Shown: positions 5,687-60,982 of the stretch, piece by piece | Numbering within the stretch: position 1 is the stretch's first letter | Layout of the letters: every line of letters starts with the position of its first letter | DNA from: Acidimicrobiales bacterium | GTDB lineage: Bacteria > Actinomycetota > Acidimicrobiia > Acidimicrobiales > SZUA-35 | Reading direction: 5' to 3' | Assembly: GCA_028285495.1 (NCBI GenBank) | Contig: JANQPB010000015.1 | Location: 124,001-188,000, forward strand | Length of the DNA stretch: 64,000 bases | Notes under the pieces: model-generated | The model's input: the letters and a program-made list of their open reading frames with translations, nothing else | Told to the model about the DNA's origin: nothing | Database searches by the model: none | Position numbers and translations under genes: made by a program

Positions 5687-7264
5687 TCATCCCCCGAACT
5701 CGGCCGCCCGCCGGATCGACAGCTCGATGCGCCGGCGCTTCGGGTCGACCGAGAGGATCTTGACGCCGACCTCGTCGCCGGGAGCGACCACCTCTTCGGG
5801 GCTGACCACCCGGTACTCGGCCAGCTCCGACAGGTGGACGAGACCCTCGGCTTCGCCGACGGCAACGAAGGCCCCGAAGTCGACCAGGCGGGTCACCCGG
5901 CCGACGACCACGGCACCGACCTCGAGGGCCAGGAGCGGGTCGGGACTCGTCTGGCGCAGCGAGAGGCTGATCCGCTTCTTCTTCGGCTTCACGTCGAGGA
6001 TCTTCACCTCGACCTGCTGACCGACCGACACGACGTCGGCCGGGCGGTTGACCCGGTGCCAGCTCAGCTCGGAGATGTGGACGAGTCCGCTGACGCCGCC
6101 GAGATCGACGAACGCGCCGTAGTCGGCGAGCGAGGCCACGGTGCCGGTCCGGACCTCGCCGGGTGTGAGCGAGTGCAACAGCTCCTGCATCTCCTTGCGC
6201 TGGGCCCGGAGCAGGAGCGAGCGGCGGCTGAGGACCAGCTTCTCGCGCCTCGGGTCGACCTCGAGGATGCGCAGCTCGAGGGTCTGGTCGGCGTAGCTCT
6301 GGATGTCGGCGACCGGAGTGAGCTCGAGGTGTGACGACGGCACGAAGCCGCGGACGCCGACGTCGACGACGAGGCCCTTCGGCGAGCACGACACGACCCG
6401 ACCGTTGACGGTCTCGTTCTTGCCGGCCGCCTCGACCATCTTCTCCCAGGCCATGCGCTTGAGGGCCCAGGCCCGGGACAGGACGACGCGGGACTTCGGG
6501 TCCTCCCTGGCGAGCTCGGCGCCGAAGGCTCGATCGCCGACCGAGAGCACGGCCGATGGGTCCTCGTCGTGCAGACCGAAGTTGCGGCGATGGATGACGG
6601 CGGTCCGCCCGTCGTCGAGGGTCAGCTCGACGGCGTCGGTGGTGACCGAGATGACCGCGCCCTCGACGATCCGGCCGGTCTCGACCACCGGCTTCGGCTG
6701 GGGCACGGGCGGGTGGGCCACCGGTCCGGCCGGCGAGGGGGCCGTGTCCCCGACCCGTGGCTCGGGAGCGGGCGCAGCCGACGGCGGCGCCGCAGTCGGG
6801 GCGGATGGCGGCGCCGCCCCGGCGGCCTCGGTCGGCCCGGGTGCGACGTCGACCGCTGGCTCGGCCGCGGTCTCGGGGACGGCCTCGGGGACGGCCTCGG
6901 GCTCGGCGGGTGCAGCCCCCGACGCCTCAGGCCCAGAGACGACCTCGGACTCGGCGGGTGCAGCCCCCGACGCCTCAGGCCCAGAGACGGCCTCGGACTC
7001 GGCGGGCCGCTCGGGGGCCGGTCCCCCGGCCTCGCGATCGGCCGGTTCGGGGGTCTCGGCGGTCGAGGAGCCGGGCTCGCTCACGTCGCCGGCCGGCTCG
7101 GTCGACGGGGCGCCGCCGGCGATCTCGTCGGCTCGGGGCTCGGATGTCGGAACCGCCGGCCCCGGCGATTCGGCGGTCTCGGGCTCGGCGGGCTCCGCAT
7201 CCGGGCCGGAGCCGTCGGCGCCCGCACCGCCGTCGCTCGGACCGCCGGAAACGGGACCACTCAT
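5687..7264 (-). CDS. S1 RNA-binding protein with four S1 domains
   Basis: 525 residues. The first 180 residues are a low-complexity Ala/Pro/Glu/Ser/Gly tail. Four S1 oligonucleotide-binding repeats follow, each with the GxVxxxxxxGxxVxL pattern: GRIVEGAVISV, GRVVSCSPKGLVVDVG, GTVASLADYGAFVDLG and GRVTRLVDFGAFVAVG. Repeats 3 and 4 have the most typical S1 sequence (SGLVHISELS, EGLVHLSELA). It is shorter than ribosomal protein S1 and has a different tail. A role in mRNA binding or translation initiation is likely, and it could be this lineage's bS1. Encoded alone; the ATG start is clear. Confidence 0.9.
   Translation of the reverse strand: MSGPVSGGPSDGGAGADGSGPDAEPAEPETAESPGPAVPTSEPRADEIAGGAPSTEPAGDVSEPGSSTAETPEPADREAGGPAPERPAESEAVSGPEASGAAPAESEVVSGPEASGAAPAEPEAVPEAVPETAAEPAVDVAPGPTEAAGAAPPSAPTAAPPSAAPAPEPRVGDTAPSPAGPVAHPPVPQPKPVVETGRIVEGAVISVTTDAVELTLDDGRTAVIHRRNFGLHDEDPSAVLSVGDRAFGAELAREDPKSRVVLSRAWALKRMAWEKMVEAAGKNETVNGRVVSCSPKGLVVDVGVRGFVPSSHLELTPVADIQSYADQTLELRILEVDPRREKLVLSRRSLLLRAQRKEMQELLHSLTPGEVRTGTVASLADYGAFVDLGGVSGLVHISELSWHRVNRPADVVSVGQQVEVKILDVKPKKKRISLSLRQTSPDPLLALEVGAVVVGRVTRLVDFGAFVAVGEAEGLVHLSELAEYRVVSPEEVVAPGDEVGVKILSVDPKRRRIELSIRRAAEFGG
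6905..7000 (-). repeat. 48-bp tandem duplication inside the S1-protein tail
   Basis: Two head-to-tail 48-bp units (6905-6952 and 6953-7000), nearly identical, encode the 16-residue unit SGPEASGAAPAE plus a variable SEAV/SEVV step. The unit keeps the frame, so it only lengthens the disordered tail. It looks like recent slippage or unequal exchange and could vary between strains. Confidence 0.9.
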
Positions 7265-7349
7265 GACACAAGAGTAGGCAGGTCAGAGCGGCTTCGGGCC
7301 AACTGTTGCCGATCCGGGCCGGCTGGACGGCTGGGCGGATGCCGAGCGA

Positions 7350-8033
7350 TCAGCCCAGGCCGATGGCGGTGAGCGTCTCGTCCGCCGGGGCCACCATGCC
7401 GGTGTAGAACGGCCCGAACTCGGCAAACACCGCCGAGGCCTCGTCGAACCGCATGGTGTACACGACCTCCTTGAGGTCGTCGAGGTGCTGGGCGAACAGC
7501 GTCACGCCCCACTCGTAGTCGTCGAGGCCGGTCGAGCCGGTGATCAGCTGCACCAGCCGCCCGGCGAACTTCCGGCCGGACGAGCCGTGCTCGTACATCA
7601 GCTCCTTGCGCCGGTCGAAGGGGGTGGTGAACCAGTTGTGCTCGTCGCCCCGACGCTTGCTCATCGGGTAGAAGCACCAGGCGGTCTTGCCATCGGGTGG
7701 GAGCTGGGGGTACAGCCGGGCGGCTTTCATCTCGTCCGGCACGCCCGCCGCGTACTCGCTGACCTCGGTGATCGACAGGTAGCTGTCGACCAGTTCGAGC
7801 CCGGCCGCCACCAGCTCGGTCTGGAGGGCCCGGAGGCCCCAGACGTCGGCGGCCAAGCCCATCACGGCCAGGTCGGCCTTGTGGCCGAGCATGGCCACCG
7901 TGACGACCTGGGTCTCCCGGTCCTTGGCCCGATCGAGGGCGGCCAGGACCTCGGCCCGGTCGGCGAGGGGGGTCGGCCGCAGGAAGAGGTGGATGACGGC
8001 GAGGCCGGTGCTGGGGTCGGGAGAGACGCTCAC
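7350..8033 (-). CDS. chdC: Coproheme decarboxylase (HemQ/ChdC, chlorite-dismutase family)
   Basis: 227 residues, the usual actinobacterial length. It performs the last step of the coproporphyrin-dependent heme pathway, converting iron-coproporphyrin III to heme b. The family segment FYPMSKRR carries the catalytic Tyr, and ELMYEHGSSGRKF carries the proximal His. The C-terminal EWGVTLFAQHLDDLKEVVYTMRFDEAS is typical of the second ferredoxin-like half. No other heme genes are next to it. The ATG at 8033 starts directly in the first beta-strand region. Confidence 0.93.
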   Translation of the reverse strand: MSVSPDPSTGLAVIHLFLRPTPLADRAEVLAALDRAKDRETQVVTVAMLGHKADLAVMGLAADVWGLRALQTELVAAGLELVDSYLSITEVSEYAAGVPDEMKAARLYPQLPPDGKTAWCFYPMSKRRGDEHNWFTTPFDRRKELMYEHGSSGRKFAGRLVQLITGSTGLDDYEWGVTLFAQHLDDLKEVVYTMRFDEASAVFAEFGPFYTGMVAPADETLTAIGLG

Positions 8034-40438: not shown

Positions 40439-40714
40439 GAGGGTCCGGTGCGGAACCACCGACCCTTCTTGGACTACTCACCCGAGATCCGACGACTGCT
40501 CTACTCCACCAACGCCATCGAGTCGTTGAACGCCCGGTTCCGGCGGGCGACCCGAGCCAGGGGCCACTTCCCCAACGAACAGGCCGCCACGAAGTGTCTC
40601 TACCTTGTCGTCCGATCCCTCGACCCGACCGGGTCAGGACAAGAACGCTGGACGAACCGATGGAAGCCAGCCCTCAACGCCTTCGCCATCACCTTCGAAG
40701 GGAGACCCTTCTAG
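40439..40714 (+). pseudogene. 3' fragment of an IS256-family transposase
   Basis: The conserved C-terminal end of mutator-type transposases: PEIRRLLYSTNAIESLNARFRR, RARGHFPNEQAATKCLYLVVRSLDPTG and RWKPALNAFAITFEGRPF, then a stop. Nothing resembling the DDE core precedes it, so the element is 5'-truncated. It marks the left side of the lower-GC cassette. The 264 bp between it and thiB hold no gene that I can see. Confidence 0.88.
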
Positions 40715-40978: not shown

Positions 40979-42010
40979 TTAGCGCAGCACTGTCTCGACC
41001 CACTGTTCAGTCCAGACCTCACGACTGTCTTCGATGTCATCGGCTGCCATCGTGAGTGGAGCGCTCGGCACGTCGCTGTGTGCCACAAAGATCTCGGGAA
41101 GATCGACGGTCTCGTTCGCCGGGTAGACGAACATCGTCAAGGGGAGCTCTGCCTGAAACTCCGGTGATGTAAGGAAGTCGATCAACTCTTGGGCTGCTTC
41201 GAGCTGCTCTGTACCGGCCAAGATACCCGCGAACTCGACCACGGCGAAGCATGTGGAAACCACCACCCCAGTCGGTGCCTCATCTACCACTGAATCTGCG
41301 AACAGAACCTCAACTGGCGGGCTTGAGGCGTATGACACCACGATCGGGCGCTCTCCTCCAGATCGAGTGAATTCGCTCTGGTAGGCCTCGGTCCATCCGG
41401 ACACGACGAGCACGCCGTTGGCCCGCAGCTGTTCCCAGTAGCCAATCCAGCCGCCCTCGCCAAATGCAGCGATGGTTGCAAGAAGAAAGGCAAGACCGGG
41501 CGACGACTGCTCGGGGTGTTGGACTACCAGAAGGTCGCTATAGGCCGGGTCGATCAAGTCGTCCAAACTCGAGGGTGGCTCGAGTTCGTTCTCAGCGAAC
41601 CACTCGCGGTCAAAGTTGATGCAAACGTCGCCTCGATTCACTGGGGTCAGCCGGTACTGAGGGTCGAGCACCAGATCAACGTCGAGGTCGCCTGAGGTCG
41701 TGGGCTGGTAGGCCGTGAAGAGGTTTGCGCCGAGGCTTCGGGTGATCAGTGTGTTCTGAATACCCCACACGACGTCGGCCGCTGGCTCATCGGCAGTCAG
41801 GATCAGCTGAGACACCAGTTGTCCGGCATCCCCGGCAGTGGACACCTCGAGCTCGACACCGGACATTGCTTCAAAGCTCGCCTCGGACTCCTCGGTCATC
41901 ACGAAGCTGTCGTAGGCGACGAGACGCAGTGGCTCATCTTGCGGCCCTTCGCCGCATGCTGCAACTGCAACACAGACAGCCGCAACTGTCAGAAACCTGC
42001 GAATTCTCAC
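40979..42010 (-). CDS. Thiamine-binding lipoprotein of an ABC importer (ThiB-like), orphan
   Basis: 343 residues from GTG 42010. Signal peptide with lipobox VAVAAC; the body is a type 2 periplasmic-binding fold: LRLVAYDSFVMTEESEASFEAMSG, VWGIQNTLITRSLGANLF, RGDVCINFDREWF, PSSLDDLIDPAYSDLLVV and SPGLAFLLATIAAFGEGGW are characteristic of ThiB. A TPP riboswitch directly upstream supports thiamine. thiP and thiQ do not follow; the next feature is a transposase fragment, so the operon looks truncated. Codon usage is more AT-tolerant than in the chromosome. Confidence 0.9.
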   Translation of the reverse strand: MRIRRFLTVAAVCVAVAACGEGPQDEPLRLVAYDSFVMTEESEASFEAMSGVELEVSTAGDAGQLVSQLILTADEPAADVVWGIQNTLITRSLGANLFTAYQPTTSGDLDVDLVLDPQYRLTPVNRGDVCINFDREWFAENELEPPSSLDDLIDPAYSDLLVVQHPEQSSPGLAFLLATIAAFGEGGWIGYWEQLRANGVLVVSGWTEAYQSEFTRSGGERPIVVSYASSPPVEVLFADSVVDEAPTGVVVSTCFAVVEFAGILAGTEQLEAAQELIDFLTSPEFQAELPLTMFVYPANETVDLPEIFVAHSDVPSAPLTMAADDIEDSREVWTEQWVETVLR

Positions 42011-42330: not shown

Positions 42331-42371
42331 GCGCCAGCAAGGGGTAGCCGTCGCCTTCCCCTTGCTGGCGC
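42331..42371 (-). terminator. Long perfect hairpin between the peptide operon and thiB
   Basis: GCGCCAGCAAGGGG (42331-42344) and CCCCTTGCTGGCGC (42358-42371) form a 14-bp perfect stem with a 13-nt loop. No T-run follows. It lies 170 bp after the last peptide-operon gene and before thiB on the same strand, so transcription ending or RNA protection is likely. The remainder of 42102-42544 shows no gene. Confidence 0.55.
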
Positions 42372-42544: not shown

Positions 42545-43480
42545 CTAGCCGAATGGGATCGACTCAGCGTTCGTGGGATAGCGATCAACCCATCTCAGAA
42601 ACGTCACCACGTTCTCATCAAGCGGGCCAGGGTTCAGCGGGCGTAACCGCAATCGCGAGAAGATCGGTTGATCCTCAGCGAGAGTCGTTCTTGCATCGCT
42701 CAGAGCGCTCATGAAGATGGATCGGGCCGCGGGCTCGGCGCCGGGAATATCCCTCCTCACCCAGTAGCTTACGTGAACCTTTGACATCGCCCGCTCCACC
42801 GGCGTATTGGTGACCAAACCGATTACGATCGGTTCGCCGGGCCGACCGGGCATAATCCGCGTGCAATAGGTATTTGGCCCGACTATGTGGGCAGAAAGGG
42901 CCGTGCCATCAGCCGCCAGTTGATACCCGAATTCGATATCGATCTCGTTGAAGCGCAACCCCTCCATCTTGGGTCGAAACGGCGGCGTAGCGTGTACATG
43001 CACTAGATGGTCGAGATCCAGGGCGTTCGCCACCTGAACGTAGCAAGGTTGAGGTATGAGGCCGAGCGTGGTCGAGAAGCTGAAGAAATCGCTGTCGTTC
43101 ACTCCGAACGGGGTAGGTACGGGGAATGTCGGTCGAGTTCCATTGAATACCCACACCAGTCCTGCCGATTCGACGCAAGGATAGCTAAAGGTCCGGACGC
43201 ACCCGGGATCAGATTCATCATTCCTAACGCTACCATCGACAGCGTAACGCCAGCCGTGAAAGGCGCACTGCAGAGTCTCCCCACAGACTGCTCCGCCACC
43301 AAGGTGTGCTCCGAAGTGCTGACACCTGGGAGCAAGTGCCGAGATCACTCCGGCCGTCGACCTCCACAACACGAGATCCTCGCTGAACAAGGGCAACGTA
43401 GCAAGTTCGCCCCGGCCAACCTCGGCCGATTCGGCGATAGCGAACCAAGACTCGAACCGGGCAACATCCGTTGGTGTCAT
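42545..43480 (-). CDS. Rieske non-heme iron oxygenase, last gene of the peptide operon
   Basis: 311 residues from ATG 43480. N-terminal Rieske [2Fe-2S] site C53-Q-H55 and C72-A-F-H75. The catalytic iron motif NALDLDHLVHVH has exact NxxDxxHxxxxH spacing (N152, D155, H158, H163). It is therefore expected to be an active oxygenase alpha subunit (hydroxylase or demethylase type). A reductase is not encoded nearby. Its start overlaps the cyclotransferase-like stop. In context it could oxidise the cysteine-rich peptide, which is inference. Confidence 0.88.
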   Translation of the reverse strand: MTPTDVARFESWFAIAESAEVGRGELATLPLFSEDLVLWRSTAGVISALAPRCQHFGAHLGGGAVCGETLQCAFHGWRYAVDGSVRNDESDPGCVRTFSYPCVESAGLVWVFNGTRPTFPVPTPFGVNDSDFFSFSTTLGLIPQPCYVQVANALDLDHLVHVHATPPFRPKMEGLRFNEIDIEFGYQLAADGTALSAHIVGPNTYCTRIMPGRPGEPIVIGLVTNTPVERAMSKVHVSYWVRRDIPGAEPAARSIFMSALSDARTTLAEDQPIFSRLRLRPLNPGPLDENVVTFLRWVDRYPTNAESIPFG

Positions 43481-44193
43481 AGGGCCACCCTGCACAGGTG
43501 CGGCCAGTTCTTTCCGGTGACGTACAGGGCGCCCGATTCCCACACGGCAACGGCGCTCAGGTGATCGAGGCCGTTGGGCGGTCCAGGCTGGAACCCTTCA
43601 AAGTCGATCGTCCAGAGAGCGCCGCCACTACACCTGCTGATGGCCAGTAGGGCGGCCTCGTGCGGCACGGTTGCAAAGAGCAGATTGCGCTCCGAATCGA
43701 AGTCGAGGGCCGACAGACCTAGCTCTGGATCGACTAGCTCGTCTGCGAGCGTCACCTCAATTACTTCACCCGTGGGCTCGAGCTCTCTATCTCTGACTGT
43801 GATCCGATTCGACCCGTTCGTTGTGAAGAAGGTGCCACTGTGACAATCGTACGTGATGCCCCAGATCGACTCTCGGCATATGGTTGCAGAAACCGTCTTG
43901 AGCGTGCTTGGGTCGATATGAACCCAGCAGGCCCCATCCCAAGTTGCGATTACAGCTAGATCGCCGGCCAAGGTGATGTCCTCATAATGAGCGTCTATGG
44001 TGGCCGGTCGAAGTTCAACATCACGGCCGGTTAGCGGATCGATCATGGCGATAGCTGAGCAGCCCCGCGGGCCTGAACTCTCGAGCAGTAGTCGACCACA
44101 ACGAACTATACCCTGAGTGTAGCGCAACGACTGTCGAGATAATGTGTCAACCGAGCGCGGCTCGTGTTTGGGTATTACAGCCAGACCGTTCAT
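43477..44193 (-). CDS. Glutaminyl-peptide cyclotransferase-like beta-propeller protein
   Basis: 238 residues. Matches the bacterial/plant-type glutamine cyclotransferase fold: LRYTQGIVRCGRLLLESSG, ITLAGDLAVIATWDGACWVHIDP, IWGITYDCHSGTFFTTNGS and the closing block ALYVTGKNWPHLCRV. The family turns N-terminal Gln into pyroglutamate. No signal peptide is seen, unlike most homologues, so a cytosolic step or a repurposed propeller is possible. It overlaps genes on both sides. The precursor peptide has a Gln at a plausible core start. Confidence 0.82.
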   Translation of the reverse strand: MNGLAVIPKHEPRSVDTLSRQSLRYTQGIVRCGRLLLESSGPRGCSAIAMIDPLTGRDVELRPATIDAHYEDITLAGDLAVIATWDGACWVHIDPSTLKTVSATICRESIWGITYDCHSGTFFTTNGSNRITVRDRELEPTGEVIEVTLADELVDPELGLSALDFDSERNLLFATVPHEAALLAISRCSGGALWTIDFEGFQPGPPNGLDHLSAVAVWESGALYVTGKNWPHLCRVAL

Positions 44194-44750
44194 GAACTAA
44201 TGTCCGATTCTAGCGATGTAGCGGCATGGGCCCGAAGTAGATCTAGTGCCGACGCAAACGAGGTCGTCGACAGCGCCAAGCGGCCGTCCGGGCCAACGAC
44301 TAAGTAGGCGGGAATGGCCACGAGTTCGAGAACCTCACTCACTGATGTGCTGTTCTCAGCCACCAGTAGCTCAGCTTCGGCAACGCCTTCCATAGACACC
44401 GCAACGAACTTCGCTCGGTTCGCCATGGCGTCTGCGGCTGCGCTGAATTGGGGTCGGTCTTCTAGACACTTTGGGCAGGCTTCCGAGAAGACACCGATCA
44501 GTCCCCAATGGCCGGACAGGCGGCGCAAGAGGGTCTCCCTTTGGCCTTTACGATCGACTAAGGCAAGATCCGGTAGCGGCCGGCCAGCGACCACCTTCGA
44601 CGATTGCACGTCGCCGTCCACAACTCCGCCCTGCATTCTGCTCAACTCAAGCGTTGCCACACGACGTAGCGAGCCAAAGGCAACGAGGATCGATACGCAC
44701 GCAAGAAGGCTTGAAGTCGCGGCGATTATGATAGCTACGGTCTGAGTCAA
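44190..44750 (-). CDS. Membrane-anchored thioredoxin-like protein (MauD/TlpA type)
   Basis: 186 residues. One N-terminal membrane helix (VAIIIAATSSLLACVSILVAFGSL), then an extracytoplasmic redoxin domain with the active site C92-P-K-C95 in GLIGVFSEACPKCLEDRP and the cis-Pro region VAIPAYLVVGPDGRL. MauD-type proteins, paired with MauE, help form the disulfides of a Cys-rich small subunit. Here it starts directly after the MauE-like gene, and the operon's own peptide has six cysteines. Confidence 0.88.
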   Translation of the reverse strand: MTQTVAIIIAATSSLLACVSILVAFGSLRRVATLELSRMQGGVVDGDVQSSKVVAGRPLPDLALVDRKGQRETLLRRLSGHWGLIGVFSEACPKCLEDRPQFSAAADAMANRAKFVAVSMEGVAEAELLVAENSTSVSEVLELVAIPAYLVVGPDGRLALSTTSFASALDLLRAHAATSLESDISS

Positions 44751-44751
44751 T

Positions 44752-45294
44752 CTAGTTCACCTCACGGGCCTTCGGGGTCTTGGATAGGGAGTGTCTGCCG
44801 ACTTCGGCCAGTTCCTCGACGTTGGCGGCCACCGCGGCGGTAAGTAGAGAGAGATTGAAGATCGCCACCGTCAACCATCCAACGTGAAGCGCCGGCTGGC
44901 TAGCGTTGACTAGTAGTCCAGATGAAGCCAGCGCGATCAGGGTCACATTGCGAACTAGTGAGTAACTCGTGATGATCATGTCCGAACCCATGCACGCGCA
45001 TGAAAGCTGCTTTCCTTCGGCGCGTTGTTGTGTCAGCACCACCGAGTAGATCACCAAAAGAGCGAGTGTGGCGGAATAGCCAACTCGGTTGGGCGCCCGG
45101 AAGGGGGAGAGGAGTAGGGAGGCGACCGAGATCTCAAGAAGTGCTATTCCGAGAGAGCTTCCTGGCGGCCACCGGAGGATCCGCAGTTCCTGTAGCTTCG
45201 CCCCGAAGCCGCGAAGGTCGACGAGCTTGGTGTATGCGGAGTACCCAAGTACGAGAGCGAGTGTGATTCTCAGGTACAGATCAAGTCGAGTCAC
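44752..45294 (-). CDS. MauE/DoxX-family redox membrane protein
   Basis: 180 residues, four to five membrane helices (LYLRITLALVLGYSAYTKL, IALLEISVASLLL, ATLALLVIYSVVL and further ones). A Cys pair C99/C101 in KQLSCACMGS lies beside a helix end as in MauE, which passes electrons to or from the partner MauD-like thioredoxin. It overlaps the signal-peptidase gene by 14 bp and is followed immediately by the thioredoxin. Confidence 0.85.
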   Translation of the reverse strand: MTRLDLYLRITLALVLGYSAYTKLVDLRGFGAKLQELRILRWPPGSSLGIALLEISVASLLLSPFRAPNRVGYSATLALLVIYSVVLTQQRAEGKQLSCACMGSDMIITSYSLVRNVTLIALASSGLLVNASQPALHVGWLTVAIFNLSLLTAAVAANVEELAEVGRHSLSKTPKAREVN

Positions 45295-45760
45295 TGGAAG
45301 ATCCGATCATTCCTCGGTCGAGGGCTACTAGTACTCTGCCGACGAGCAGGTCGCGTGGGACAGGGCCCCAGGCACGCGAGTCGAAGCTGATATCGCTGTC
45401 GCCCTGCAGGAAGACCATGCCATCTCCGACCGACACGCTGATATCACTGCCTTGGTTGTGAGCCGATTCGGCGACGAGACGGCTGACGGAGCTGTTGCGA
45501 AAGACGAGCTGATCGCCTGGTAGGCCTACCAGCCTCTTGACGACAAGGGTGCCCGGCCCTTTGAGCCCCGGATCCTTCGCAATCACGACGGCCCTCCGGC
45601 TGTACAATCGGTTCGTCCGGAGGCCGATAAGTCTCGCCCCGTGCCCATAGGTTGGGCTCATGGAGAATCCGCTGACGGTGACAAGCGTCAGTGTGCGGTG
45701 GACCAGAAGTCCCGCGGCGATCAGCATGCCCAGCGCCGGAAGCATGAGTCGGTGTGTCAC
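45281..45760 (-). CDS. S26 (type I) signal peptidase-like protease
   Basis: 159 residues from GTG 45760, overlapping the ABC gene stop (GTGA). One N-terminal membrane helix (MLPALGMLIAAGLLVHRTL), catalytic Ser33 in SGFSMSPTY and catalytic Lys75 in LVVKRLVGLPGDQL, then FLQGDSDISFDSRAWGPVPRD, the standard S26 C-terminal box. Much smaller than housekeeping LepB. A dedicated processing protease for the cluster peptide is the simplest reading. Confidence 0.9.
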   Translation of the reverse strand: MTHRLMLPALGMLIAAGLLVHRTLTLVTVSGFSMSPTYGHGARLIGLRTNRLYSRRAVVIAKDPGLKGPGTLVVKRLVGLPGDQLVFRNSSVSRLVAESAHNQGSDISVSVGDGMVFLQGDSDISFDSRAWGPVPRDLLVGRVLVALDRGMIGSSSDST

Positions 45761-47604
45761 TGGTACAGCTCGGCTTGTTCGATGAATGCGTGCCGGTACC
45801 AATCCGACCCCGCAAGTAGTTCCTGATGACTTCCCTCGTCCACGATGGCACCCCGGTCCATCACGACTATCCGGTCGGCGCAACGAACGAGGCTGAAGCG
45901 ATGAGAGACCACCAGCAACGTAGCTTTGCCCGAGAGGTCGCAGATGGTGTCAATGATCTCGCGCTCAGAGGCAGGGTCTACGGACGAGAGTGGTTCATCG
46001 AGAATCAGGAGGGGAGGGTCGCTATAGAGTGCTCGGGCAAGAGCGACTCGTTGCCACTCGCCGCCGCTGAGCTGCGCTCCAGTTGCGAACGAGTCGGCCA
46101 GAGAGTCGGTGAAGCGTCGACTGATGAGGGCGTCGAAGCCGCCAGGCAGCCGATGAGCTACCGGATCCAACCCTACGCGCTTGGCCACGTCGACTACTTT
46201 TGTAGGTGATAGACCGCGGCCGAGAGCGATGTTCTCGCCCAGAGTGAGTTCGAACTCGGCGAAGTCTTGGAACAGCACTGCGGCGTGGTTTGGGGTCTCT
46301 GCTTGGCTGTCGCCGACCTCGACACCGTTGTGCAAGATCGCTCCGTGTGATGGCTTGGCGAGTCCCGCGGCGAGCTTGGCGAGCGTAGACTTCCCCGCGC
46401 CGTTTGGTCCAACGACTGCCACGAACTCGCCTGCCTCGAGGTGGAGCGAGATGGCGACCGCGGATGGGGATATGCGGCCGGGGTATGTGTAGGAGACTCG
46501 TTCCATCGTAACGTCGGTCGGTCTGCGTGGGTGGGCCTCTGGGGTGCTGACGGTCATCGCTCGCCGGCGCTGGCTGCGGTCGAGAAAGAGCGAGAATCTG
46601 TGTAGCGCGAGGCGTAGATCGAACGCCTCACTAATGGCCGCCCCCGTGGTGCCGGCGATGCTCACTAAGGCTCCGGTCAGATAGACCATCTCGGCGACCG
46701 ACAGTCGTTCGGCGGCGACGCCGTTGGCAAGCTGGACCCCCGCTAGAGCTAGGGCGGCGGCCGATACTCCCGCGGCTGCGAGGCCGCTTCTCAAATAGTG
46801 TCGCTCGTAGCCGTCTTCGGTCCTGTTCGTCCGCGACCACATCACAGTCGCGCGCTCAGCGAAGTAGTGAGATCGTTGGTAGAGGACCATTTCGCGATGA
46901 GTAGCGTGATTTCGCAGTAGTTCCTTGTATGAGAAACGCTCGCGTTCGGCCTCAATAGTATTGAGTATGAACTCGTTTCGACGTCTCGAGATGCGGGATG
47001 CAGCCCAGGACTGTGCGGCGATGATCAATGTGAGACTCAGGCCAGTGCGCGCATCTAGTAGAAGGCCCGACCCGGTGAATATCGCCAACGTCAGTAGTCG
47101 CTCGGTCACTCCCGAGAGAGATACGAGAGCGTCGCTGGCTGCTTGCACTCCTTCCTCTTGGGCGAGGACTATCTCATCCTGAGCCTGGGGTGAGTCGAGG
47201 GTATCGACCCAGTCGACCGCCTCTGCCGTCTGGATCAAGGCGATCATCCCGAGGGCGTTGAGCCGTCGGCGGCACCACCCAGTCAAGTACTGTCTTAGAC
47301 GAGACGCGGCCTCGATGACACCGGCGAGGCCGGCGAGACCTGCGAGCCAGTAATAGATGCTTGCGCTGCCACTTGAGGCGGCCGAAACGGCCCGAGCGAC
47401 GGCGTAGGCCGAGAGAACCGGGACCAACGCCATCAGTGACGATAATCCGACCCCGATCGTTGGGCGTAGGCGCCCGGTGGCAGCGATCGTGTGCTGTAAC
47501 CACTGTCTGAAGAGGTAGAGCAGACGCAGTCTTCCCGGACGGGAGCGACCCGCCGGCTGCCGCGTGTCCGGCGAGTCGCTCAGGTCCGAGTAACGCAACC
47601 GCAT
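45757..47604 (-). CDS. ABC transporter with fused membrane and ATPase domains, peptide-exporter candidate
   Basis: 615 residues from ATG 47604. Six-helix exporter domain (VGLSSLMALVPVLSAYAVARAV onward), Walker A GPNGAGKST, signature LSGGEWQR, Walker B LLILDEPLSSVD, H-loop VVSHR. There is no N-terminal C39 peptidase domain, so leader removal must be done by another enzyme such as the adjacent S26 peptidase. Starts 74 bp after the peptide gene. The longer frame to 47841 would overlap the peptide gene and is rejected. Confidence 0.9.
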   Translation of the reverse strand: MRLRYSDLSDSPDTRQPAGRSRPGRLRLLYLFRQWLQHTIAATGRLRPTIGVGLSSLMALVPVLSAYAVARAVSAASSGSASIYYWLAGLAGLAGVIEAASRLRQYLTGWCRRRLNALGMIALIQTAEAVDWVDTLDSPQAQDEIVLAQEEGVQAASDALVSLSGVTERLLTLAIFTGSGLLLDARTGLSLTLIIAAQSWAASRISRRRNEFILNTIEAERERFSYKELLRNHATHREMVLYQRSHYFAERATVMWSRTNRTEDGYERHYLRSGLAAAGVSAAALALAGVQLANGVAAERLSVAEMVYLTGALVSIAGTTGAAISEAFDLRLALHRFSLFLDRSQRRRAMTVSTPEAHPRRPTDVTMERVSYTYPGRISPSAVAISLHLEAGEFVAVVGPNGAGKSTLAKLAAGLAKPSHGAILHNGVEVGDSQAETPNHAAVLFQDFAEFELTLGENIALGRGLSPTKVVDVAKRVGLDPVAHRLPGGFDALISRRFTDSLADSFATGAQLSGGEWQRVALARALYSDPPLLILDEPLSSVDPASEREIIDTICDLSGKATLLVVSHRFSLVRCADRIVVMDRGAIVDEGSHQELLAGSDWYRHAFIEQAELYQ

Positions 47605-47677
47605 GGTAACGGTCGACGGCCTTTGCTGATCGCGATCGATAGCGGGGGGCGACGTCGGATGGAGTAGCGTGAACGGG

Positions 47678-47881
47678 CTAGCAGGGACCCGAGTAGCTGC
47701 AGGACGTACATCCGCCGCCGATGGGTGCGCAATACTTGTAGAGCCCGACATGCGGGTAGGAGATGCAGTAGCAGAACCTGGGGATCTGGCCCTCTGCCTC
47801 CATTCTGTTTCTGATCGCCTTGTCGGCCAAGCGGTCGGCAAGACGAGCTATGCGGCCTTGTCCTTGGGCAATGGTCTTCAT
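47678..47881 (-). CDS. Cysteine-rich secreted-peptide precursor (candidate RiPP)
   Basis: 67 residues from ATG 47881 with GGAG about 12 nt upstream. Residues 1-31 look like a leader: basic and amphipathic (RIARLADRLADKAIRNRM) ending MEAEG. Residues 32-67 begin with Gln32 and hold six Cys (37, 39, 51, 58, 61, 67), many Tyr and Gly, and a C-terminal SCSYSGPC. There is no Sec-type hydrophobic signal. First gene of an operon for export, processing, disulfide chemistry, pyroglutamate chemistry and oxidation. I know of no named family. The frame to 47932 only adds a leader-less extension. Confidence 0.8.
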   Translation of the reverse strand: MKTIAQGQGRIARLADRLADKAIRNRMEAEGQIPRFCYCISYPHVGLYKYCAPIGGGCTSCSYSGPC

Positions 47882-48057
47882 GTCAGCTGTTCTCCAGTTC
47901 GTCAAGTCTCGATGGAGCCGTGTCGCTCGCATCCTCTAGATACCTGAGCATTGCGAGAATGGACTGGGGTGAACAACGCCCTCTAGCGGGTCAAGATCTC
48001 CGTCTCGACGCCGCAGTAGCCGGAAGTTGCAGTGCTTTGTCGTCTTTTGGGCCATCG

Positions 48058-48121
48058 GCACCGGCGCCGGTGCTGCGAGGCCGCTTCCCGGTGGGAAGTG
48101 CCGACCTCCACAGCCGCGGCT
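48058..48121 (-). promoter_or_regulatory. Cluster of palindromes between regulator and peptide operon
   Basis: GCACCGGCGCCGGTGC (48058-48073) is a perfect 16-bp palindrome. CTTCCC/GGGAAG (48084-48098) and an AGCCGCGGCT dyad next to the regulator stop follow. They may combine a terminator for the regulator gene with operator sites for the peptide operon. The promoter itself (47.9-48.05 kb) is not evident. Confidence 0.45.
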
Positions 48122-48718
48122 TCACGGCTGAGAGTTGAGCAGACCCCACTTGGCAGCGGCTATTGCTGCCATACGATGATCGTCCAGGTTGAGGCTCCGG
48201 CAGAGTAGGCCAAATCGGCGTTGAACCTGCCTGCGGGAGTATCCCAAGCGCTCGCCAGCGGCTTCGATGGACATCGTCGCTGCCAGGGCAAGCAAGTCCT
48301 GTTCCTCCGGGGTGAGTGGCCGAGGCGGCGACTCAAGTCGCTGTGCCAGCTCGAGGCCGTGGCCGTCGGGGAGGATGCAGCATCCGGTGCTCGCAGCGAT
48401 CGCAAGCATGGCCTGCTCCGTAGGGACACCCTGAGCTTTGATCATCGCATCGGCGCCGGAGGTTATGAGTCGACGAGTGTCATCAGGAGTCGCAGTCTCG
48501 ACTGCAACGATCAGTCTTGGCCTTCGTAGCGCTCCCTTGGCTTGTTCTCGCGCCGTGTCGAGGTCCTTGGGGAGCACTATGACGGAATCTACGCCAGCAA
48601 CGGGAAGGGGGCTCCCCGTTTCCCAGTAGTGGACTACTGCTCCGGCGCTTCGAAGTGCTTCGCTGAACTCGGAGGCTTGCTCAACAGGCGGGCCGAAGCC
48701 TAGGAGAATCGTAAGCAA
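48122..48718 (-). CDS. LuxR-type regulator with a degenerate receiver
   Basis: 198 residues from a TTG at 48718 with GAGAGGG upstream. The N-terminal 130 residues resemble a receiver fold (LTILLGFGPP, DSVIVLPKDL, RLIVAVETATPDD), but the phospho-Asp context is not canonical. The C-terminus is a LuxR/GerE helix-turn-helix: LTPEEQDLLALAATMSIEAAGERLGYSRRQVQRRF. Lies directly upstream of the peptide operon on the same strand and is its likely regulator. Confidence 0.82.
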   Translation of the reverse strand: MLTILLGFGPPVEQASEFSEALRSAGAVVHYWETGSPLPVAGVDSVIVLPKDLDTAREQAKGALRRPRLIVAVETATPDDTRRLITSGADAMIKAQGVPTEQAMLAIAASTGCCILPDGHGLELAQRLESPPRPLTPEEQDLLALAATMSIEAAGERLGYSRRQVQRRFGLLCRSLNLDDHRMAAIAAAKWGLLNSQP

Positions 48719-48919
48719 GTCGGGCCCTCTCTAGATGGCGGCGGCGAGAACCTGGAAGTCGACGATGACGCAATTGGAGTATAGGTCGGTGTATTTGATT
48801 GGAGGGGGTCGGCGCCGGTGGGGAGGTTCAACCTGAGGTTGTGGATCGGTCATCTGTTCGGGGGCGCGGCGTCCCTTCCTCGTTGAACGAAGCGAGAGGC
48901 AACACGCCGACGTTGCGGC

Positions 48920-49230
48920 GTTGGCTGGAATGCACGCCGATGTTGAGAGTAGTGGCTGATAGACCAGCGGACGAGGAGATGTGTTTGACTCTGGATGAGA
49001 TCTGCCGGGAAGGCGCCCGGAGGATGTCGGCCGCGGCCCTTGAGGCCGAGGTCGATGAGTACATCACCAATCTGGTCGACCGGGTCGACGACGAAGGTCG
49101 ACGGCTGGTGGTCCGTAACGGGCACGCCCGGCCCGCACCCTGACCATGGCTGCCTGGTGGGTCGAGATCCGCCAGTCAAGGGGGGATGACCGTCGGGTCG
49201 CGCCCGGGACCGGTGAGCGGCGTCGGTTCC
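48920..49230 (+). pseudogene. 5' fragment of an IS256-family transposase
   Basis: CLTLDEICREGARRM, LEAEVDEYITNL and GRRLVVRNGHARP are the N-terminal signature of mutator-type transposases. The frame stops at 49143, and a shifted frame continues VEIR and GERRRFR before similarity is lost. With the 3' fragment at 40.4 kb, same strand, it brackets the 40.7-48.8 kb cassette. Confidence 0.8.
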
Positions 49231-59989: not shown

Positions 59990-60670
59990 GAAGCTGACGA
60001 GGCCATCGGTACCGAGCGGTGGGAACGCTCGTCGCAGCAGTTGACGCATCGCAGCGGTCACCGGCCACAGGTCCCTTCCCGAAGGCGGGTGATCTGGAGC
60101 TGGGGATCCCGAAGTCTCGGCGAGGCTCGTTCTCCGCGGAGATCCTCGAACCCCGCCGCCGCAGCGACCAAGCCCTGTGTGCGGTCATACTGGAGGCCTG
60201 CGTCAAGGGCGTCTCCACAAGGGCCGCTGACAACCTGGTGACGGCGATGGGGATCGATACCGGGATCTCGAAGTCCGAGGTGTCGAGGATCTGTGCCGGC
60301 CTTGACGAGAGGGCCGAGGCCTTCCGGGGTCGGGCTCTGGGTCACATCGCCTTCCCGGACGTCGACGTGGATGCCACCTACGTGAGTGTCCGAGACGACG
60401 ACTTGGGCCAGGTCGTCTTGAGCCTGGTCATCGCCACCGGCATCGCCGCCAGCGAGGCGAGGCGTCGTCGGTGTCCGTCTCGTGATCTCCGACGCCCTCG
60501 AGGGATCGAAATCGGCCATCCGCCGTTGCTTCCAAGGGGCGTCGTGGCGGCGGCGCCGGTTCACGACGCCCGGAACCTGCTGTCCGAGGCGCACCAACTG
60601 GACGACCTGCTGTCAGGAGTGGTGCGACCTCTCGGCGGCGGGTCGGACCCTGGGCCCGAGCAATGCCTCA
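59990..60670 (+). pseudogene. IS256-family transposase remnant with multiple frameshifts
   Basis: Three frames in order give EAIGTERWERSSQQLTHR, then GDLELGIPKSRRGSF, LEPRRRSDQALCAVILEA, GISKSEVSRICAGLDERA and FPDVDVDATYVSV, then LVISDALEGSKSAIRRCFQG. These are the central and DDE-core regions of a mutator-type transposase. N- and C-termini are lost. Confidence 0.85.
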
Positions 60671-60982
60671 GGCAGAGATGGGTACGACTCGGGGTTGGAC
60701 CTGCTTAGGCTCGTTCGGATCGACCGGCTTCTCCACCGCCGGAGGTGGCGGTGTTGGCCTGTCCGCAAGCTGGACTTGATAGTAGGTCTTGAACGAGATA
60801 CCAACTTCTCGCATTTCAAAGACTCGAGAACTGTTGTCGCCGCGCTGATTCATCAAGAATTCTGCGTATGTCCTGGCCTCTTCAAGGCTGGCAGTTACAA
60901 CGTGTTGAAGTCCGGCGTCCACACCGTGAATGAGCAAGTGCGGCGTCGCCGCATCGAGGTGATCGTGGCCTATCGACTTCAT
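60668..60982 (-). CDS. Hypothetical protein
   Basis: 104 residues from ATG 60982. Begins MKSIGHDHLDAATPHLLIHG, with a helical centre (SLEEARTYAEFLMNQRGDN) and a Pro-rich tail (RPTPPPPAVEKPVDPNEPKQ). No family recognised. It abuts the transposase remnant, so its 3' end may have been altered by insertion. Confidence 0.45.
   Translation of the reverse strand: MKSIGHDHLDAATPHLLIHGVDAGLQHVVTASLEEARTYAEFLMNQRGDNSSRVFEMREVGISFKTYYQVQLADRPTPPPPAVEKPVDPNEPKQVQPRVVPISA

Follow-up and report, generated by a model that had tools for sequence, protein, structure and literature searches.

Organization of the operon

We analyzed a stretch of 64,000 nucleotides from an Acidimicrobiales bacterium (assembly GCA_028285495.1, contig JANQPB010000015.1, positions 124,001 to 188,000; hereafter the window, whose numbering is used throughout), and in particular a minus-strand operon that begins with the gene for a small, cysteine-rich precursor peptide. 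From its sequence and that of its relatives, the operon probably makes a disulfide-rich, exported peptide of the kind found among ribosomally synthesized and post-translationally modified peptides (RiPPs), and would be a horizontally acquired, oxygenase-bearing variant of a family that is common in actinobacteria.

The precursor gene (47678–47881) encodes 67 residues, has an ATG start preceded by GGAG, and carries a six-Cys core within the C-terminal 31 residues (Cys37, Cys39, Cys51, Cys58, Cys61 and Cys67). Its leader comprises residues 1–29 (47795–47881; motif LADRL...RMEA), with residue 31 as the alternative end (AEG↓Q). Since GGAG lies upstream and homologous leaders start with M-K/R-T-I/L, we prefer the start at 47881 over that at 47932.

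The precursor gene is separated by 73 nt from that of an ABC exporter of 615 residues (45757–47604; Pfam ABC_tran), in which membrane and ATPase parts are fused and a C39 peptidase domain is absent. Next is an S26 (signal peptidase I-like) leader peptidase of 159 residues (45281–45760; Pfam Peptidase_S26) with one N-terminal membrane segment and, by reading, a Ser33/Lys75 dyad, both columns of which are conserved among related peptidases. It is followed by a MauE/DoxX-like redox membrane protein with the motif C99-A-C101 (44752–45294; Pfam MauE), a membrane-anchored thioredoxin-like protein with a CPKC motif (44190–44750; assigned to the Pfam thioredoxin-like fold via the TraF model), a glutamine-cyclotransferase-like propeller (43477–44193; Pfam Glu_cyclase_2) and a Rieske non-haem iron oxygenase of 311 residues (42545–43480; Pfam Rieske). 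Downstream of the exporter, every stop/start pair overlaps or touches: the exporter and S26 genes share GTGA, the S26 and MauE genes overlap by 14 nt, the MauE and thioredoxin genes are 1 nt apart, and ATGA overlaps join the thioredoxin gene to the propeller gene and the propeller gene to the Rieske gene. Because their reading frames overlap in this way, we assign the propeller and Rieske genes to the operon. The gene order, the overlapping junctions and the six-Cys precursor at the head of the operon are all as given in a preliminary description of this DNA.

Related loci in actinobacteria

The precursor has no match to a Pfam, NCBIfam or PHROG family, and a search with its sequence gave no credible match among 85,000 species contigs, in 298 genomes from the order or in a plasmid collection. 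The precursor family is detectable only via its operon. A search with the window MauE pointed to one genome from the same phylum in which a 59-residue, Cys-rich open reading frame (ORF) lies amid genes for MauE, two thioredoxins, an ABC protein and an S26 peptidase. A 93% identical copy of this ORF is located on a plasmid of Streptomyces sp. NBC_01727, where the NCBI annotation contains the entire operon and labels the precursor as a hypothetical protein.

When 249 genomes of a Streptomycetaceae-type family were searched with MauE, 51 matches were obtained; 40 of these were examined together with the first locus. An ABC gene is found near MauE in 39 of the 41 loci; 37 of these 39 also contain a short ORF that is rich in Cys, has a leader of the same style and carries an A-x-A site (the exceptions are L096 and L098). 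The preliminary description had made its reading depend on whether homologous operons keep such an ORF, and their doing so supports a secreted, disulfide-rich peptide as the likely product of the window operon. Beyond this sample, the named cases among the matches listed are Nonomuraea sp. SYSU D8015, Micromonospora sp. CB01531 and S. atratus OK807 (L183), from a scan that used an exporter alignment and is a sample rather than a census. The description had also asked whether homologous precursors recur beside the same MauE, thioredoxin, S26 and cyclotransferase genes. Cys-rich ORFs do recur with MauE, thioredoxin and S26 genes, but the precursor search itself matched nothing credible and the cyclotransferase-like gene is missing: neither it nor a Rieske gene is present in any of approximately 44 related loci, the sole Rieske match, in one of them (L128), being a fragment of 29 residues at a distance of 7.5 kb.

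In the window's own order, MauE genes are mostly generic, and the best loci have no ABC or S26 gene within approximately 1.5 kb. No Cys-rich partner was seen at the other MauE loci of the same genome. In one locus of the order (L144), a 127-residue, Cys-rich ORF with a Tat-signal-like sequence (271–654 of that locus, minus strand) lies near a generic MauE gene on the opposite strand and may represent another type of MauE client.

The joint occurrence of a propeller with MauE and a MauD-like thioredoxin could also suggest a divergent amine dehydrogenase cluster, with the small ORF encoding an enzyme subunit similar to MauA. The 67-residue peptide contains no Trp for a tryptophan tryptophylquinone (TTQ) cofactor, however, the operon has no dehydrogenase subunit, and relatives of the peptide sit with ABC and S26 genes rather than with amine dehydrogenase. 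Since this RiPP-like context recurs, we regard the amine dehydrogenase explanation as highly improbable.

The precursor as a member of the family

Within the window, a rule consisting of leader, A-x-A site and Cys tail, written from the related loci, has one match, which is the precursor. It has no matches in 109 control loci (1.25 Mb), 2 in the reversed related loci, and 35 in the related loci, with at least one in 30 of the 45. Since the positives themselves went into shaping the rule, the counts for the controls and the window tell more than the match rate in the related loci. The precursor thus shows the leader, A-x-A-type site and Cys tail of the MauE-associated, Cys-rich RiPP candidates, with an ambiguous −1 residue (A29 or G31), and its operon unites the MauE, thioredoxin, ABC and S26 genes that go with them.

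The spacing of the Cys residues differs greatly among members of the family. The window core is of the six-Cys sub-type FCYC...C...GG..C..C...C, which is found in three related loci (L116, L117 and L118). On a profile of five six-Cys cores of this type from these loci it scores 29.5 bits, above every other precursor outside the profile; this score is reached by 7 of 5000 shuffles with fixed Cys positions and by none of 5000 full shuffles. In the FCYC alignment, no variation is seen at the six Cys residues, at Ala29 or at one Gly that precedes the C-x-x-C pair. The window leader scores 10.4 bits on a profile of 44 family leaders, a value reached by 6 of 10000 shuffles. Only this general profile recognizes it, a leader profile built from the FCYC type giving 0.4 bits. 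Across 396 genomes of the phylum, the six-Cys precursor profile matches the window alone.

The FCYC clusters have several precursors each: L116 carries three six-Cys precursors in tandem (6941–7533 of that locus), and L117 and L118 have two precursors apiece, located on both sides of the exporter.

The CxC and CxxC spacing of the core would also suit a RiPP that binds metal, such as a copper or zinc chelator, and is held in the reduced state by the thioredoxin; among copper-binding RiPP systems, maturation proteins resembling MauE/DoxX have been named (HvfX family; the Streptomyces MauE is a weak match, E = 0.014). Yet the operon is devoid of a metal-uptake gene, the Cys spacing is highly variable across the family, and the pairing of MauE with a membrane thioredoxin speaks for oxidation, as in methylamine dehydrogenase maturation. 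We therefore judge a metal-binding peptide to be improbable.

Leader cleavage site

In all 44 family leaders, the small-x-Ala site that most closely precedes the first Cys has Ala at −1 and A, V, S or G at −3. Two sites in the window precursor resemble this arrangement. Cleavage at MEA↓E30 would place the invariant Ala at −1 and Met at −3 and yield a product of 38 residues, whereas cleavage at AEG↓Q32 would place Ala at −3 and Gly at −1 and yield 36 residues with an N-terminal Gln. When the precursor is aligned with its FCYC-type relative, MEA↓EGQIPRFCYC and TAQA↓DTSFYKFCYC show the same six-residue spacing to FCYC. The alignment favours a cut after A29; the sequence as such is compatible with either bond. 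The cut before Gln32 that had been proposed therefore stands as one of two possible sites, and the less favoured one. In two related loci (L130 and L183), cores may begin with Gln though their clusters contain no propeller gene.

The propeller protein

The propeller is a relative of Glu_cyclase_2 (74.6 bits against a cutoff of 22.3; E = 1e-20), matches 3NOL and 3MBR, and belongs to the five-bladed propeller family of plant-type (type I) glutaminyl cyclases. The active-site residues of the papaya enzyme are E69, N155, K225 and Q24 (PMC5837995). In papaya numbering, the window protein keeps Q24, E69 and K225 but has Ser in place of N155 and Pro in place of W169, and the catalytic set E69/N155/K225 is thus incomplete. 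Position 155 is Asn in all 21 compared homologues and is strictly conserved in Bacteroidetes orthologues (PMC5837995); position 169 is Trp in 20 of the 21 and Tyr in the other. In the cyclotransferase alignment, the solved cyclotransferase 3MBR has Ala at the position where papaya and the other proteins have the catalytic Glu69, and Glu69 may thus not be essential in all members.

The protein also lacks a signal peptide or hydrophobic N-terminal segment, which is present in the homologues with a readable N-terminus. Judged by this absence, it would not be located outside the cell, where the mature N-terminus of the peptide is exposed, although signal-less export is possible. Since the S26 domain is expected to face outward, a propeller acting on the peptide would do so before export and not on the freed N-terminus, or would itself be exported unconventionally.

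These features bear on the suggestion that the product is pyroglutamyl, with S26 cutting at AEG↓Q32 and the propeller turning Gln32 into pyroglutamate as in the Bacteroidetes Q-rule, a published precedent for a peptidase acting with a cyclase (PMC10653852, PMC5837995). Family membership, the three retained residues and the fit of A29-E30-G31 to a −3/−1 small-residue site followed by Gln speak for it, and 18% of bacterial plant-type homologues are predicted to be cytosolic (PMC5837995). Conversely, the missing signal peptide sits badly with an S26 peptidase acting outside, both N155 and W169 are replaced, all other leaders have Ala rather than Gly at −1 with the nearest precursors favouring A29↓E30, and no related cluster has a propeller. 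Like the window operon, the Q-rule systems combine an enzyme resembling signal peptidase with a protein that has the plant-type cyclase fold, but their cyclase lies outside the cytoplasm and has the conserved catalytic Asn. The pyroglutamate proposal is weakened accordingly, and we consider it unlikely.

The Rieske oxygenase

By reading, the Rieske protein has intact ligands for both its cluster (C-x-H...C-x2-H) and its iron site (D-x2-H-x4-H). It matches Pfam Rieske with 60.9 bits, and its C-terminal domain falls below the cutoff (17.4 versus 23.3). The nearest solved relatives, over the N-terminal half, are SxtDIOX, SxtT and 3-ketosteroid 9alpha-hydroxylase. No Rieske gene of this kind was found at E ≤ 1e-15 in 11 sampled genomes of the same genus. 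Since the enzyme should be cytosolic, it would have to act on the peptide before export. The hydroxylation suggested in the preliminary description may occur: translational coupling of the gene and the intact ligands agree with it, whereas the lack of a Rieske gene in related clusters does not. A Rieske tailoring enzyme is not known to us from any described RiPP, although no search was aimed at this point.

Two explanations for the pairing of oxygenase and propeller deserve attention. Tentatively, the core of a disulfide RiPP may be oxidized by a dedicated Rieske oxygenase, with the cytosolic propeller, its catalytic Asn lost, repurposed for example in binding or modifying the substrate before export. 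Alternatively, both could be passengers or belong to a second pathway, the peptide being an ordinary disulfide RiPP; their absence from the related loci, and the wide occurrence of both families with other substrates, would agree with this. Against it, the start of each gene overlaps the preceding stop by ATGA and the low G+C content is common to the whole block, and we regard the passenger explanation as rather doubtful.

Flanking features and origin of the operon

The G+C content of the operon is 0.60, compared with 0.69 elsewhere in the window and 0.71–0.73 in other pieces of the genome; between 40000 and 50000 it falls to 0.59–0.64, against about 0.70 around. Remnants of Mutator-family (IS256-type) transposases lie on the plus strand at 40448–40714 and 60019–60708. 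The low G+C content, the transposase remnants and the absence of the Rieske gene from the sampled congeners point to horizontal acquisition of the operon. A further plus-strand ORF (48799–49143) looks by eye like the N-terminal piece of a Mutator-type transposase and has no Pfam match.

Upstream of the precursor, a candidate regulator gene (48122–48718, minus strand) encodes a putative C-terminal helix-turn-helix (HTH). It had been called LuxR-type, but its HTH matches are all sub-threshold (HTH_23, E = 0.009; phrog_323, E = 9e-4), and its link to the operon is suggested by position. Approximately 175 nt past the Rieske stop codon, a near-perfect 20-nt inverted repeat with a 1-nt gap (42331–42371) may mark the end of the operon or be a palindromic element; since it has no T-run, we treat it as a candidate terminator only. 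Just downstream of the operon (40979–42010, minus strand) lies a gene whose product resembles a lipoprotein and matches the substrate-binding proteins of the thiamine ABC family (TIGR01254, above cutoff).

Discussion

Combining these data, we infer a product, its disulfides and its modifications along the following lines. The ribosome would make a 67-residue precursor with an amphipathic leader, as sequence and homology suggest. In the least certain step, the coupled Rieske oxygenase may oxidize the core in the cytosol, perhaps with the propeller as enzyme or scaffold. The ABC exporter, presumably recruited by the leader motif, given the conserved pairing of leader and exporter, would then export the peptide, and the membrane S26 peptidase would cut a small-residue site after A29 or G31, the type of site being indicated by alignment. 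Outside the cell, MauE and the CPKC thioredoxin would drive the formation of three disulfides, a role for which their homologues in lasso-peptide clusters are helpful, not essential. The released peptide of 36–38 residues is most likely a bacteriocin or signal.

Several points weigh against this interpretation. Leader, core and locus statistics are supportive but not fully independent, since they share some training data. The window proteins are only about 25–35% identical to their Streptomyces counterparts, with the exporter approximately 30% identical to those of related clusters. No immunity gene was recognized, and we found no characterized product of a MauE–S26–ABC cluster in the open-access literature, subscription papers lying outside the search. 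Finally, DoxX and thioredoxin genes are also present in the lasso-peptide clusters svi (sviE/F) and msl (mslE/F), but deletion of mslE or mslF only lowered the yield and deletion of sviF did not stop sviceucin production (PMC9266682). As these knockouts keep a disulfide peptide, MauE and thioredoxin may not form the disulfides. These class I lasso clusters resemble the window operon in pairing a DoxX/MauE-like protein with a thioredoxin for an exported disulfide peptide, and differ in their lasso cyclase and leader-peptidase B proteins, for which the operon has no Pfam or NCBIfam match.

The preliminary description had put the system forward as a candidate new class. Its core gene set is widespread in actinobacteria, however, and mauE/mauD-associated, Cys-rich candidate RiPP families were already reported in 2020: decRiPPter (Kloosterman et al.) identified in Streptomyces three candidate families with mauE, one also with mauD, whose precursors have at least 8 Cys residues; the authors suggested a role in peptide modification, and the mauE families were listed without products (PMC7794033). 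These families, likened here by description only, share with the window a mauE gene (in one case with mauD) beside a short Cys-rich precursor, whereas the window precursor has six Cys residues, comes from another order of the phylum and is accompanied by Rieske and cyclotransferase-like genes. The NBC_01727 plasmid cluster (NZ_CP109164.1, OIE76_RS41155–RS41185) likewise combines a precursor (WP_327129478.1), MauE/DoxX, TlpA, ABC and S26 in one block, but has at least 8 Cys residues, two redoxin genes and a SARP regulator, and neither Rieske nor propeller genes. Closest are the FCYC precursors, which align with the window precursor in the leader, the six Cys positions and the Gly before C-x-x-C; their clusters differ in having two or three precursors each, in lacking Rieske and propeller genes, and in their identity of approximately 25–32%. 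What is new here is that the system occurs beyond the Streptomyces-type group, that a Rieske oxygenase is coupled to it and that its propeller is altered.

The window operon thus belongs with a large, little-studied group of actinobacterial disulfide-peptide operons that can be recognized by a short leader motif together with MauE, thioredoxin, ABC and S26 genes. With it one could test whether exported peptides receive their disulfides from MauE/thioredoxin pairs, a question raised by the knockouts in lasso-peptide clusters, and whether ribosomal peptides are substrates of Rieske enzymes.

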